64,000 nt of DNA, taken from contig NZ_CP116805.1 in the NCBI RefSeq assembly GCF_028463845.1, positions 3,406,001 to 3,470,000 on the forward strand, written 5' to 3'. Numbering within the stretch: the stretch's first letter is position 1; the number at the start of each line of letters is the position of its first letter. The notes below the pieces were generated by a model. The model did not search any database. It was not told the origin of the DNA and saw only the letters and a program-made list of their open reading frames with translations. The position numbers and the translations under genes were made by a program. Source of the DNA: Gimibacter soli (GTDB lineage: Bacteria > Pseudomonadota > Alphaproteobacteria > Sphingomonadales > Kordiimonadaceae). Shown here in pieces: positions 42,374 to 59,342 of the stretch.

Positions 42374-44347
42374 ATGCGCCATTCCCTGCGGGCAGCCTTT
42401 CTGGCCTTCACCCTTGCCTTCCCTGCGTTTGCTGAAGAAGCGACAACCCCGCCCCCGCTTTACCCGGTGGAGCAGTTCGCCGCGCTCGCGCGGGTCAACC
42501 AACTGACCGTCTCACCGGACGGGGAGTTTATCGCCTATATCTCGCCGCTTGGCGGGCGCCAGCATGTGGTGATGCACCGACTGGGCGAGAAAGACTTCAA
42601 CAAGATGGTGATCCTGCCGCCAATCGACGAGGGCAGATTGACGGCCGACGTCAGCTGGATCCGCTGGGCCAACAATGAACGGCTGTTCGTTTCCTACCGC
42701 TTCACCAATGACGACGCCTTCCGGCGTTATGTCCGCACTGCCATGTTCAGCGTGCCGCGCGAAGGCAAAATCAAATGGGTCGATATGGCCCAGCCCAGCC
42801 GAGACCAGCGGAAGCAGGGATATAAAGCGTCGCCAGCCCAGTTCAAGGACGACATTATCGATCATCTGCCGGACGAGCCGGATTTTGTCCTGCAGTCTAT
42901 CGACAGTGACCAGGATGGCAGCGACGAAATCCGGAAGGTGAATGTTCACACCGGCAAATATTCCGTGGTGACCGAAGGCCGGGCCAGTATTCAGAATTGG
43001 CTTGTCGATGCCAATCATGAGCCCCGGCTCGGCTGGGGATATGACCAGTATTCGAACAGCAAGACGATCTACCGCAGCCCCGAAACCGGCAAATTCATCG
43101 ACCTGACGGACACCGAATGGCTTGATTCCGACAGGATCAACCCGATCGGCTTCACCGACGACCCCCGCATCGTTTATGCCCTTGAAACCGTCAGTGACAC
43201 GGTCAAGCGGCTGGTCTCCTTTGACGTTCTGGAAGGCAAGGTGAAAAGCATCCTGTTCGAGCGCGAGGGCGCCACCGCCACGGGCCTGCGCCGTCACCCG
43301 GTCAATGACGTTGTCATCGGTTATACCTATAGCGATGAAGACGGCGGCGACACTTTCTACACCGATCCCTTCCTGAACAAGCTGAAAGCACGGATCGATC
43401 AGCTGCTGCCGGATGGCTATAACCGGATTGTCGATTTTGTACCCGCACGCAGCCAGTATTTCATCCTGCATAGCAACGAACGCAATGAAGGCACCTATTT
43501 CATCCTCGACCTGAAATCCAAGACGCTGACGCCCGAGATCAATCGCCGCGACTTTGCGCCGGATACAATGGCCAGCACGCTCAGCTATACGGTGGCGGCC
43601 CGTGACGGGCTCGAATTCAAGGCGATGCTGACCCTGCCGGTTGGACGGAAGGCCGAGAACCTGCCGTTGATCGTCATGCCGCACGGTGGCCCCCATGCAC
43701 GCACATCCGGCGGTTTCCAGTATCAACGCCAGTTTTTCGCCAATCGTGGCTACGCGGTGCTCGAACCCGATTTCCGCGGGTCCACGGGCTATGGCACCCA
43801 GTTCAAGGAAGCCGGCTTCAACGAATGGGGCGGCAAGATGCAGGATGACGTGACCGACGCCACCAAATGGGCAATTGAAAAGGGTATCGCAGACCCTGCC
43901 CGCATCTGCATTGTCGGCGGTTCCTACGGCGGTTACGCGTCCCTCATGGGCACCATCATGGCGCCTGGCATGTATGCTTGCGCCATCAGCATCAACGGTG
44001 TGGCCGACATCCCCGGCATGCTGCGGTTCGACCGCTATTTCCTCGGCGGCCGCGAGTGGAACAAGAAGATCATCCCCGAAGGCCGCAAGGCGACAGATAT
44101 CTCGCCCGTCGACCGCGCAGCAGAAGTTTCGGCCCCTGTTCTGATCATCCACGCGAAGGACGATCCGGTCGTGCGCTTCGATCAGGGCAAGGGGATGTAT
44201 TCCAAACTCAAATCGCTTGGCAAACCCGTTGAATTCATTGAGCTGAAATCAGGTGACCATTATCTCGATACCACCGAAGCCCGCCTCGCGACGCTCACCG
44301 CGATGGAGGCTTTCCTGAAAACACATCTGGGCGCACCCGCACCCTGA
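42374..44347 (+). CDS. Secreted S9 family peptidase (prolyl oligopeptidase type), copy 1
   Basis: The 657-residue protein has a signal peptide (AFLAFTLAFPAFA), an N-terminal beta-propeller (about 30-390) and a C-terminal alpha/beta-hydrolase domain with the catalytic triad Ser517 (GGSYGGYA), Asp597 (HAKDDPVV) and His629 (SGDHYLD). This is the S9C acylaminoacyl/dipeptidyl-peptidase type, acting on short peptides in the periplasm or outside. Its ribosome site is weak. A paralogue follows after 26 bases, so the two form an operon. A 240-base region divides them from sdhC. Confidence 0.93.
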   Translation: MRHSLRAAFLAFTLAFPAFAEEATTPPPLYPVEQFAALARVNQLTVSPDGEFIAYISPLGGRQHVVMHRLGEKDFNKMVILPPIDEGRLTADVSWIRWANNERLFVSYRFTNDDAFRRYVRTAMFSVPREGKIKWVDMAQPSRDQRKQGYKASPAQFKDDIIDHLPDEPDFVLQSIDSDQDGSDEIRKVNVHTGKYSVVTEGRASIQNWLVDANHEPRLGWGYDQYSNSKTIYRSPETGKFIDLTDTEWLDSDRINPIGFTDDPRIVYALETVSDTVKRLVSFDVLEGKVKSILFEREGATATGLRRHPVNDVVIGYTYSDEDGGDTFYTDPFLNKLKARIDQLLPDGYNRIVDFVPARSQYFILHSNERNEGTYFILDLKSKTLTPEINRRDFAPDTMASTLSYTVAARDGLEFKAMLTLPVGRKAENLPLIVMPHGGPHARTSGGFQYQRQFFANRGYAVLEPDFRGSTGYGTQFKEAGFNEWGGKMQDDVTDATKWAIEKGIADPARICIVGGSYGGYASLMGTIMAPGMYACAISINGVADIPGMLRFDRYFLGGREWNKKIIPEGRKATDISPVDRAAEVSAPVLIIHAKDDPVVRFDQGKGMYSKLKSLGKPVEFIELKSGDHYLDTTEARLATLTAMEAFLKTHLGAPAP

Positions 44348-44373
44348 CCTTTATCCAGACGTCCGGAGACTTT

Positions 44374-46374
44374 ATGAAATTCTCAACTGCCTTTCTCGGC
44401 ACATTCGCCAGAACCACCTGCATCGCAGCTCTCCTCACGGGGGTTGCACAGGCTGCCGTAGCCGACACGCCGCCAGCCCTGATCCCGGTTGAACGCTTCG
44501 CCGAGCTGCCCTCTGCCCAGCATTTCAACCTTTCGCCGGGCGGCGATTATGTCGCCTATGTCTCGCCCATCAACGGGCGCCAGCATGTGTTCATGCATCC
44601 GATCGGCGACACAAGCCCTGAAACGCTCGTTGTCCTGCCGCCGATCGATCAGGGCCGGATCACCGCCGACATTTCCTGGATCGACTGGGCCAACAATGAA
44701 ACGCTCCTCATTGCCTATCGCTTCACCGACCGCATTCGCGGCGAAGAATTTACCCGCACCGACATGTTCAGCCTGAACCGCAAGAAGGGTTCAAAATTCA
44801 TGAGCATGGCGCGCCCCAGCAAACGGGAGAAGGACGAAGGCCTCACGTCGTCACGCGCCCAGTTCAAGGACCGGGTGATCGACATGCTGCCCGATGACCC
44901 CGAGCATATCCTGACCACCCTCGACCCCGAGATGAACGGCAAATACGAAATCCGCAAGGTGAAGGTGAAGAACGGCCAGTTCAGCGTGGTCAGCGATGGC
45001 ATGCACGGCATCCAGCAATGGATGACCGACGAGAACCACGAGCCCCGCATCGGCTGGGGCTACGACCGCACCGAATTCCATATCGTTTACAAGGACCCGG
45101 ATACCGACCGCCTCGGCGATATTCAGGATTCGGGCATGATGGCGAGCGGCGAGATCGAGCTGCTCTCCTTCACCCAGGATCCCAAGGTTGCCTATGCCCT
45201 GCATCTGCAGGAAGACGGCAACCACACGCTTGTCACCTACAACATCCCCTCGGGGCAAATCGTCGAAACCCTTTTTGCGCCCGAAGAAGGTGATGTGACC
45301 GGCCTGAAGCGCGATCCCGAAACCGACGCCGTCATCGGCTATCGCTATAACGGCCCTGACGGCGGGCGCGTTCATTATATCGACAAGCAGATCGCCGGCC
45401 TGAAGACCAGCATCGACAAGCTGCTGCCGGACGGATTGAACGAGATCACCGATATCGTGCGCAGCCAGAAGATGTTCCTGATCCTGCACAGCAGTGTGCG
45501 TGATCCCGGCAGCTATTATCTTCTGGACCTGAAATCGAAGCAGCTGTCGCCGATCACCCGCACCCGGAATATCGATCCGGCAACGCTGACCGATATCGAG
45601 GTGCAGAAGATCGCCGCCCGTGACGGGCTGGAGTTTGAGGTGCTGGTCACCAAACCGGCCGGTAGCGAGGCAAAGAATCTGCCGATGGTGGTTTTCCCCC
45701 ATGGTGGACCACATTCCCGCAGCTCCATCTCCTTCCACTATATGGCGCAGTTCATGGCAAACCGTGGCTATGTCGTACTGCAGCCGAACTTCCGGGGCTC
45801 CACCGGGTACGGTGATGCCTTCGTGGAAGCCGGCTACAATGAATGGGGCCGCAAAATGCAGGAAGATGTGACCGACGCGACCAAGTGGGCAATCGAACAG
45901 GGGCTGGCCGATCCGAAGCGCATCTGCATCGCTGGCGGTTCCTACGGCGGTTATGCTGCCCTCATGGGTGCGATCACCGAGCCTGATCTATATGCCTGCG
46001 CGATCAGCTTCAACGGAGTGGCCGATATTCCCCGCATGATCGAGGCCGACAAGGGCTTCATTGGCGGGAAATTCCGGGTGAAGAAAATCATCCCCGAAGG
46101 GATGAAGAAGGAAGACATCTCGCCAGTGCACCGCGCCGCCGAGATCAAGGCCCCGATCCTGCTCATTCACGCCAAGGATGATCCGGTCGTACCGTTCGAC
46201 CATGGCCGCGCCATGAACAGCAAGCTGAAAAGCCTGCAAAAGTCGGTCGAGTTCGTAGAAATGGATTCCGGTGACCATCATCTGGAATCCGCAGAAGCGC
46301 GCCTCGCGACGCTCAACGCGATGGAAGCTTTCCTCGCCCGTCACATCGGCGCGGGAACTGCGGCGGGGCGCTGA
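44374..46374 (+). CDS. Secreted S9 family peptidase (prolyl oligopeptidase type), copy 2
   Basis: The 666-residue paralogue of the previous gene has a signal peptide (TTCIAALLTGVAQAAVA), the beta-propeller with matching blocks (VAYVSPINGRQHVFMH against IAYISPLGGRQHVVMH in copy 1) and the hydrolase domain with Ser523 (GGSYGGYA), Asp in HAKDDPVVP and His in SGDHHLE. GGAG precedes the ATG. The gene pair probably arose by tandem duplication; differing propellers suggest different peptide preferences. It is convergent with the MCP gene at 46415. Confidence 0.93.
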   Translation: MKFSTAFLGTFARTTCIAALLTGVAQAAVADTPPALIPVERFAELPSAQHFNLSPGGDYVAYVSPINGRQHVFMHPIGDTSPETLVVLPPIDQGRITADISWIDWANNETLLIAYRFTDRIRGEEFTRTDMFSLNRKKGSKFMSMARPSKREKDEGLTSSRAQFKDRVIDMLPDDPEHILTTLDPEMNGKYEIRKVKVKNGQFSVVSDGMHGIQQWMTDENHEPRIGWGYDRTEFHIVYKDPDTDRLGDIQDSGMMASGEIELLSFTQDPKVAYALHLQEDGNHTLVTYNIPSGQIVETLFAPEEGDVTGLKRDPETDAVIGYRYNGPDGGRVHYIDKQIAGLKTSIDKLLPDGLNEITDIVRSQKMFLILHSSVRDPGSYYLLDLKSKQLSPITRTRNIDPATLTDIEVQKIAARDGLEFEVLVTKPAGSEAKNLPMVVFPHGGPHSRSSISFHYMAQFMANRGYVVLQPNFRGSTGYGDAFVEAGYNEWGRKMQEDVTDATKWAIEQGLADPKRICIAGGSYGGYAALMGAITEPDLYACAISFNGVADIPRMIEADKGFIGGKFRVKKIIPEGMKKEDISPVHRAAEIKAPILLIHAKDDPVVPFDHGRAMNSKLKSLQKSVEFVEMDSGDHHLESAEARLATLNAMEAFLARHIGAGTAAGR

Positions 46375-49135: not shown

Positions 49136-49297
49136 AGTTGCAATTTTCCGCATTCATCAGGTTGAATATTGCTAATTCTTTGGAATTACTGGATCAACCA
49201 TCTCTGATTGAATTTTTTCTTGTAGGCATTTCTACTGATCTGAACGATACTTGGGCCATACATGGATGACAGAATCATATGAATTCCGGCGTATTTC

Positions 49298-50506
49298 ATG
49301 ACCTTCATCGCCCCGATCAGCAGCAACAGGGAAACGGGTGACAGCTTGGTTGCCTCCTTACCAGACCTTGGCGGCATGAGCTATATGACAGCAGCCCTTG
49401 GCGTCGTCGGCAAGGCTCTTGATGCGCGCCTTGTGGCGCTGATGCCCCCTGCCCGCGCCGCCGATGAACTGGCCGTCAGCCTTGCGGCTGTTGACCGTGA
49501 TGGCACCGCAGACCCGGTCAAGTTCCGCACCCTGCCGAAGGAAGCCGATTGCCGCTACATGGTGACGGCAGAAAAGCTCGCCACATGGGACGCCGTCGAC
49601 AGCGCCTATCTTTCGCTTGAAGACGCCGACCATCAGTCGCTCGGGTATGTCATCGCGCTGACTGCCAAGCCGGCCACCAACGAGATGCTCGTGGCGGCGG
49701 TGAAGTCTCTCGGTCTGCGTTTCATCGAGGAAGTCCGCCAGCTGGAGCAGCTCTCCCGGCTTGAGCTTGCCTTGCAGAACGAGCGGTTCACCAACCAAGC
49801 CAAATCGATCTTCATGGCCAATATCAGCCGCGAGATCCGCAATCCCTTGAGCGCCATCATCGGCTACGCCAGCCTGTTGAAGAACCGCGAGTTGCCGCCC
49901 GAGGAAATCCAGGAATTCGCGCTCGAGATTTCGCAAACAGGCGAGCAGCTGCTGGCCTTGATCAGCGACATTCTGGACCTTTCCACCCTCGATCTTTCAA
50001 GTGGTGTCGCCAAGCAGGAAAGCTTTGACTTGGGCGAGGTTGCCCGCGCCGCACGGCGCATCATGCTGGAGCAGGCCGCATCCCGGCACCTCGAATTCCC
50101 CGGCAGCGAACGCGGCGAGCCCCTGTGGGCGCTCGGCGACATGGAAATGACCCGCAAGGCCGTGCTGGTGCTGGTGTCGAACGCCATCAAATATACCAAC
50201 AAGGGCGAGATCAGGATCGACCTTGAAGAACGCCCCGGTGGCGAGGTGGCCCTCATTGTCCGCGATACCGGTATCGGCATGACACCCGATGAACTGAAGC
50301 AGGTGAGCAAGCCCATTGGCGCGCTGGACACCGCCTATAGCGTGCACAGCGATGGCTCCGGCCTCGGCCTGCCCCTGAGCTTCCTGTTCGCCGAACGGCA
50401 AGGGGCGCGCATCGCGATCGATAGCGAAAAAGGTGTCGGCACATCAGCCGCGATCATCTTCCAGCCGGGCAAGCCACCCTCATCCGGCGAAGACAGTTTC
50501 ATCTGA
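49298..50506 (+). CDS. Histidine-kinase-like protein lacking the phosphoacceptor His
   Basis: The 402-residue cytoplasmic protein has a GAF-like N-terminal region (about 25-145), a short coiled coil, a HisKA-like dimerisation domain and an ATPase domain. The H box reads FMANISREIRNPLSAIIGY, so the usual His is Arg178 (codon CGC at 49829). The N box (VLVLVSNAIKYTNKG), G1 (VRDTGIGM) and G2 (GSGLGLPLSF) look intact. It can probably bind ATP but cannot autophosphorylate at the standard site. It may regulate another kinase. No clear ribosome site precedes ATG 49298. It is monocistronic. Confidence 0.86.
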   Translation: MTFIAPISSNRETGDSLVASLPDLGGMSYMTAALGVVGKALDARLVALMPPARAADELAVSLAAVDRDGTADPVKFRTLPKEADCRYMVTAEKLATWDAVDSAYLSLEDADHQSLGYVIALTAKPATNEMLVAAVKSLGLRFIEEVRQLEQLSRLELALQNERFTNQAKSIFMANISREIRNPLSAIIGYASLLKNRELPPEEIQEFALEISQTGEQLLALISDILDLSTLDLSSGVAKQESFDLGEVARAARRIMLEQAASRHLEFPGSERGEPLWALGDMEMTRKAVLVLVSNAIKYTNKGEIRIDLEERPGGEVALIVRDTGIGMTPDELKQVSKPIGALDTAYSVHSDGSGLGLPLSFLFAERQGARIAIDSEKGVGTSAAIIFQPGKPPSSGEDSFI

Positions 50507-58907: not shown

Positions 58908-59342
58908 TCAGGCCTTGCTTTCCATCGCTTTTTCGATCGCCAAAAAAAGCGCGTCGCGGCTGATCGGCTTGCCGACCACGCCATCGATCCCGACATTCAG
59001 GTAAAGCTCCATATCCTCGTCGGATACATTCGCGGTGAAGGCAAGGATACAGATGTTGCCCCGCGTGCCCTCGATCGAGCGGATGCCTTCGGCGGCCTCG
59101 ATGCCGCTCATGCCGGGCATCTTGATATCCATGAGGACAAGATCGAACGGCTGCTTGCTGTAGCGCACGGCATCAATGGCATCGAATCCGTTCGACACCA
59201 GCTTGACCTCATAATTCCCAAGTTCTAGGAAACGGCTGATGAGGGCCTGATTGATCTTGTTGTCTTCGGCAACCAGCACCCTGCAGGAGCGTTTTGCAAC
59301 TTCCGGGTAGCGTGGCACCTCGATCGGCTCGAGATAATCCAT
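58908..59342 (-). CDS. Single-domain response regulator (receiver only)
   Basis: The 144-residue protein is a receiver domain with an 18-residue N-terminal extension. The acidic pair is Glu26-Asp27 (VLVAEDNKINQ), the phosphoacceptor is Asp72 (LVLMDIKMPGMSG) and the conserved Lys is in VGKPIS. The sequence resembles receivers fused to hybrid kinases but stands alone, so it probably relays phosphate or controls a protein partner. ATG 59342 has AGGA close upstream; the much longer frame to 59669 overlaps the divergent transporter gene and is rejected. Confidence 0.88.
   Translation of the reverse strand: MDYLEPIEVPRYPEVAKRSCRVLVAEDNKINQALISRFLELGNYEVKLVSNGFDAIDAVRYSKQPFDLVLMDIKMPGMSGIEAAEGIRSIEGTRGNICILAFTANVSDEDMELYLNVGIDGVVGKPISRDALFLAIEKAMESKA

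Follow-up and report, generated by a model that had tools for sequence, protein, structure and literature searches.

The window, that is, the whole stretch of 64,000 nucleotides of the Gimibacter soli genome that was analysed, contained on its forward strand a gene for a soluble histidine-kinase-like protein. The genes around this site, which we take to be sdh, S9 peptidases, citE, the window gene, asd, leuB, leuD, leuC, rplS, trmD, rpsP and ffh in this order, kept their arrangement to varying extents in relatives. The window gene was divergent from the citE-like gene and convergent with asd, and thus no cognate regulator was adjacent to it. Two tandem genes at 42374-46374 (+), presumably encoding S9-type peptidases judging by their sequence features, were located near the locus, and the number of matching frames differed among relatives. 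The features of the window gene and its upstream region were as follows.

49154..49297, no strand: intergenic region common to the window gene and the divergent citE-like gene (upstream comparison with Pseudokordiimonas caeni)
49298..50506 (stop codon included), +: histidine-kinase-like protein, soluble, 402 aa (ORF and Pfam)
49298..49771, +: N-terminal region, degenerate GAF-like, residues 1-158 (alignment; GAF models match some orthologues)
49799..49993, +: HisKA/DHp domain, residues 168-232 (PF00512, 61.2 bits)
49829..49831, +: CGC codon of Arg178, which occupies the phosphoacceptor site (sequence, H box NISREIRNPL)
49841..49843, +: Asn182, at H+4 in the phosphatase motif E-x-x-N (sequence; role of the position from an excerpt of PMC3510030)
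50150..50458, +: HATPase_c/CA domain, residues 285-387 (PF02518, 61.6 bits)
50168..50170, +: Val291 in place of the first N-box Asn (comparison of 24 kinases)
50492..50503, +: C-terminal tail D-S-F-I, residues 399-402, with a Glu just before it (type of end kept in 11 orthologues)

Domains and active-site residues

Pfam analysis of the window protein placed it in the sequence family of HisKA-type histidine kinases, since both domains scored above their cut-offs (HisKA, 61.2 against 26.9 bits; HATPase_c, 61.6 against 26.4 bits). The phosphoacceptor His, which is required of an active kinase of this type, was absent. The sequence agreed with the initial annotation, which had read the H box as NISREIRNPL with Arg178 encoded by CGC. 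Glu179, Asn182 and Pro183 were retained after Arg178, and the phosphatase motif E-x-x-N/T was present as E179 and N182. The N, G1 and G2 boxes had all been described as intact; this held for G1 (DTGIGM) and G2 (GSGLGLPL), but not for the N box, in which Val took the place of the first Asn in the common motif NLLxNA in both species of the window genus (N291V), while the second Asn (N295) and K298 were kept. Position 291 was Asn in the other 22 of the 24 kinases compared, a set that comprised, besides the two window-genus proteins, 9 orthologues and 13 outgroup or own-genome kinases. The substitution N291V may weaken ATP binding.

A GAF-like N-terminus had also been proposed. No Pfam GAF domain was found in the window protein itself, but GAF models matched some orthologues (E up to 0.01), with PF01590 in 3 of 10, GAF_2 in 2 of 10 and GAF_3 in 1 of 10. 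Of three orthologues viewed in detail, L017 exceeded the cut-off (27.2 against 22.4 bits), L022 fell short of it and L019 showed no match. The N-terminal region of the window protein contained a gap of 16-18 residues in the alignment with the orthologues. The maximal 19-residue mean Kyte-Doolittle value was only 1.33, and no obvious membrane helix was seen, in line with the soluble architecture described before. The structural model had a mean pLDDT of 72.8 and a pTM of 0.50, with low confidence in parts of the N-terminal region and values below 50 for the tail residues 397-402. HK853-RR468 entries were the top PDB matches in a fold search with this model, and DivL and RetS were also matched, so that the model, which is of moderate quality, does not discriminate among the readings discussed below.

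The phosphoacceptor site in orthologues

An orthologue was found in the congener P. caeni LB-31 (family Kordiimonadaceae); its protein was 91% identical to the window protein and carried the same CGC codon, although the two genes differed by 161 nucleotides. Within the family, asd was detected in 27 of 29 genomes, and a kinase relative was located beside it in 11 of these 27, the copy in G002 being detected by position only. No kinase relative was seen beside asd in the other 16, two of which (G017 and G028) had less than 1 kb of sequence beyond asd; citE directly followed asd in 9 of the 16. An order-wide profile search of 396 genomes gave only ten genomes with a match below 1e-150, all in the family, and the next match was at 5.2e-68; as it was limited to four scored candidates in each genome and did not detect the copy of G002, other divergent copies may have escaped it as well.

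The 11 positional orthologues showed His at the site in seven cases, Arg in three and Asp in one. The seven His proteins belonged to one genus (G021, G027, G024, G022, G009, G011 and G014) and used CAC six times and CAT once. Arg was encoded by CGC in both members of the window genus and by CGA in G005, and Asp was encoded by GAT in G002; G005 and G002 represented two other genera. The H+4 residue was neither Asn nor Thr in 3 of the 11 orthologues (Glu, Met and Ser); of the two further lineages without His, G005 had the Glu and G002 the Ser. The G002 orthologue (L135, 2656-3564, -), with Asp at the phosphoacceptor site, was a protein of 303 aa in which the GAF region was replaced by sequence with many Pro, Thr, Arg and Glu residues.

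In the tree of the kinases, the 11 orthologues were grouped with a support of 100, G005 and G002 were paired at 85, and the window genus joined the His group with a support of only 62. The nine-protein tree without outgroup instead placed G005 with G004 (100) and G002 with other genera (79). Three state changes were needed on the tree built without the column of the site, for which the program warned that the two long branches of G005 and G002 meet; their join may be false. Not one of 200 bootstrap trees (0%) united the four non-His members, yet such a group was not rejected by the AU test (p 0.0946). One to three losses of His are possible, and two are favoured if His was never regained.

The comparison of the window gene with that of P. 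caeni gave a dN/dS of 0.072, with 0.042 for the HisKA part, and the values of 12 neighbouring genes ranged from 0.035 to 0.143, so that the window gene lay inside their range. The changed residue was thus kept, in a gene under purifying selection, in the two species available for comparison. Upstream of the start codon, a stretch of 200 bases that included the intergenic region was 93% identical to P. caeni, and the synonymous divergence of the gene was 0.61; because citE shares that region, its conservation is not a proof for the window gene alone. The mean ratio of kinase to species distance, taken to five His members, was 3.4-3.5 for the window genus, 4.4 for G005 and 5.3 for G002, and was 2.8-3.4 among the five His members. 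The window gene looks constrained, and the faster evolution of the genes in G005 and G002 fits a partial relaxation there.

Arg in a canonical H box was rare. When 385 alphaproteobacterial genomes were searched with a DNA pattern corresponding approximately to N-[I/M]-[S/T]-R-E-x-x-x-P, the single genome with a match was the window genome itself, with 0 control matches among the matches listed; the pattern is narrow and covers neither AGR codons nor variant H boxes, for example the ones in G005 and G002. The counterpart with His gave 182 matches (forward and reverse) in 31 of 58 genomes and detected just 4 of the 27 located His kinases of the window genome, and the rate is therefore valid for canonical H boxes only. 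The window genome (3.59 Mb, one contig) contained 37 HATPase_c matches, and the orthologue profile matched 30 ORFs among 37 stretches that were examined. The H-box residue was His in 27 of these ORFs, Tyr in one (L112) and Arg in the window protein, and one (L114) had no H box. L112 (1977-4325, -, at ~62 kb of G000:C1) was DivL-like, with PAS domains and Tyr in the H box NMSYELRTPL. One HATPase_c match, at G000:C1:2399654-2399986 (-), was located in a frame that held one TGA and was possibly an interrupted kinase gene.

The C-terminal tail and candidate partners

All orthologues ended in the same type of tail, D-F-I in 8 of 11 and D-S-F-I in 3 of 11, even the 303-aa copy of G002 without the GAF region. 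An end in FI was found on only 2 of the 29 other ORFs of the window genome: L081, a protein of 572 aa with PAS domains that ends in ADDNFI, and L100, a protein of 674 aa with HAMP and PAS domains that ends in DDDDFI. L081 (1971-3686, -, G000:C1:2537597-2539312) was a conserved double-PAS kinase with His in its H box. It was matched in 35 of 41 genomes, and 30 orthologue loci were looked at, 23 in the family and 7 outside. Within the family, the L081 orthologues ended in FI (18), YI (2), VI (2) or none of these (1), and the two VI ends (G003 and G010) had no acidic cluster; at the 7 loci outside the family, no FI end was found. A DUF2336 gene, recognized by Pfam in P. caeni, lay upstream of L081. 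In P. caeni, part of the 3' end of the L081 orthologue was duplicated ~2.3 kb away (L233), after a frame of 682 codons, and this copy gave an extra match to the tail pattern described below. L100 (360-2381, +, G000:C1:751627-753648), likewise with His in its H box, was matched only in the two species of the window genus (2 of 41 genomes, E up to 1e-80).

A DNA pattern of the tail matched two sites in the whole window genome, both of them kinase ends, with 0 matches of the control; the window gene itself was missed because of a Glu. In 45 other genomes, the pattern was noisy and matched many sites. Among 30 of its loci that were checked, the pattern was preceded by an open frame of 100 codons or more in 4; two of these frames were kinases, and one of the remaining two had a stop inside the pattern. 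The tail was dropped as a genome-wide DNA marker. Similarity of the DHp domain did not reveal a partner either, as no kinase of the window genome stood out (best L080, 46.4% identity; L081, 37.7%).

A tail of this kind has a counterpart in WalK of Streptococcus mutans and Staphylococcus aureus, whose acidic Trp-containing tail is reported, in the excerpt of PMC9087282, to be needed for WalR binding, phosphotransfer and phosphatase activity. The window protein likewise has an aromatic residue among acidic ones in its C-terminal tail; WalK, in contrast, is an active membrane kinase and its aromatic residue is Trp, whereas the tail of the window protein ends in Phe-Ile. The WalK tail is an analogy for that of the window protein, not a homology.

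The initial annotation had also pointed to a receiver-only protein at 58908 as a possible partner. This protein (58908-59339, -) was best read from about 59339, with 143 aa and a Response_reg score of 80.2 bits. In relatives, the matching receiver formed the C-terminus of a hybrid kinase encoded upstream of ffh; in the window genus, the kinase part may have been lost and the receiver alone retained. The search for the receiver covered 16 stretches, 8 of which gave no match; several of these did not include ffh, and the absence of a match there tells little. Co-occurrence did not link the two proteins, because the hybrid kinase was also present in genomes with no kinase beside asd (G007, G016, G017 and G020), and the suggested pairing was not borne out by this approach.

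Possible functions of the protein

Given the chemistry of the family, ordinary autophosphorylation and phosphotransfer through residue 178 are not expected with Arg in place of the phosphoacceptor His. The window protein is best read as a soluble pseudokinase that would act by binding, possibly as a phosphatase or a decoy for a shared regulator, a reading that we hold to be somewhat more probable than not. The gene would persist through a selected function other than autophosphorylation at residue 178. Most likely, the protein would form a DHp dimer that carries a CA domain, and both the face of the DHp domain and the conserved C-terminal tail would contact its partner, probably a response regulator. 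With Glu179 and Asn182 retained, the proteins of the window genus would remain able to dephosphorylate the bound regulator; failing that, they might act by sequestration of the regulator or by modulating an active kinase. The most concrete guess is a partner common to the window protein and L081, because this conserved double-PAS kinase has the same type of tail; it is from the tail that the guess is drawn, the DHp domain of the window protein being no closer to L081 than to several other own kinases. An extension of this guess, which we consider speculative and unlikely, is that the acidic-aromatic tail is a docking code of the Kordiimonadaceae that tethers several unrelated kinases to one partner, and that the asd-linked kinase was converted, possibly repeatedly and with differing outcomes (Arg, Asp), from a signalling enzyme into a decoy or phosphatase, held by its tail, of the pathway that L081 feeds.

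Several known proteins resemble the window protein in part. Like DivL of Caulobacter (Tyr550), it is an alphaproteobacterial protein with a HisKA and CA fold and no phosphoacceptor His. As had been annotated, it is not of the DivL architecture; it has Arg instead of Tyr at the site, no PAS match, a length of 402 aa, and positional orthologues with His in one genus; the genome encodes the separate DivL-like protein L112, and the Tyr and PAS-containing architecture typical of DivL were not found in the window protein. DivL is reported, in an excerpt of PMC4211667, to bind DivK~P without kinase or phosphatase activity. With the bifunctional HisKA kinases CrdS, EnvZ and HK853, the window protein shares the fold, the Glu at H+1 and the Asn at H+4, but it has neither their phosphoacceptor His nor the first N-box Asn. 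RetS and a pseudokinase variant of ChrS are described in excerpts of PMC4866733 and PMC9491836 as kinase-family proteins that act on other kinases through heterodimers; unlike the window protein, RetS is a hybrid kinase (PMC4866733) and the variant of ChrS goes back to a frameshift within the CA domain.

The alternative with the most in its favour is a former kinase that is now only a phosphatase, in which the loss of His would have removed the kinase half of the activity, leaving an enzyme dedicated to dephosphorylating the original response regulator. The retention of Glu179 and Asn182 in the window genus points in this direction, and so do the CrdS mutants reported in an excerpt of PMC3510030: H371A lost the kinase activity and kept most of the phosphatase activity, with a CrdA~P half-life of 2.6 min compared with 0.7 min for the wild type and 53.5 min with no CrdS, and N375A, at the H+4 Asn, abolished the phosphatase activity. 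In the same excerpt, however, PleC H610A lost both the kinase and the phosphatase activities, and DivL is without phosphatase activity (PMC4211667, in the part cited). Judged from N182, phosphatase activity is possible in the window genus, but it would not be a family-wide trait because the other two lineages without His have Glu (G005) and Ser (G002) at H+4. Taken together, a phosphatase-only protein is a possible but not a probable explanation.

A trans-acting subunit, which would form a heterodimer with an active kinase and either phosphorylate the His of this partner through its CA domain or inhibit the partner as RetS does GacS, appears doubtful. The window genus does not have the first N-box Asn, and no strikingly similar DHp domain was found in the own genome (best 46.4%), although the CA domain was above the cut-off with intact G1 and G2 boxes, the ChrS pseudokinase is reported to heterodimerise with HrrS (excerpt of PMC9491836) and RetS is reported to block the autophosphorylation of GacS (excerpt of PMC4866733).

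Still more doubtful is a gene on its way out, in which the catalytic loss would be the first step in the decay of a dispensable gene. The patchy presence, with 16 of 27 family genomes showing no kinase relative beside asd, the degenerate GAF region, N291V, and the raised distance ratios in G005 (4.4) and G002 (5.3) against 2.8-3.4 would all fit such a decay. They are opposed by the frame, which was open in 11 of 11 orthologues, the conserved tail, the dN/dS of 0.072 in the window genus, the ratio of the window genus (3.4-3.5) at the top of the range of the His members, and the upstream region with its identity of 93%, though citE shares the latter. The chance of a sequencing or assembly error at codon 178, where one transition parts the CAC of six His orthologues from CGC, is practically nil, as the identical CGC codon in P. 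caeni, in a gene with 161 differences, ruled it out, and other genera have Arg (CGA) or Asp (GAT) at this site. Orthologues with His, which the initial annotation had regarded as a sign of error or decay, were indeed found (7 of 11), but neither conclusion follows because the separately sequenced congener shares the Arg under purifying selection and two further genera are also non-His.

A regulatory pseudokinase, as first suggested, therefore stays the best general interpretation of the window protein and is plausible by inference from its sequence and those of its orthologues. Pseudo-histidine-kinases are already known as a kind; in the part of the open-access literature searched by titles and abstract openings, no report of the window protein, of a pseudo-histidine-kinase of Kordiimonas or of a HisKA protein with Arg for His was found. 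The features of the present variant are the differing replacements among positional orthologues, some of which have His, and a tail common to other kinases of the family. With His and non-His orthologues at the same chromosomal site and two different replacement residues among them, the steps from enzyme to pseudoenzyme could be tested directly, and the shared C-terminal tail is a concrete, falsifiable handle on the partner.
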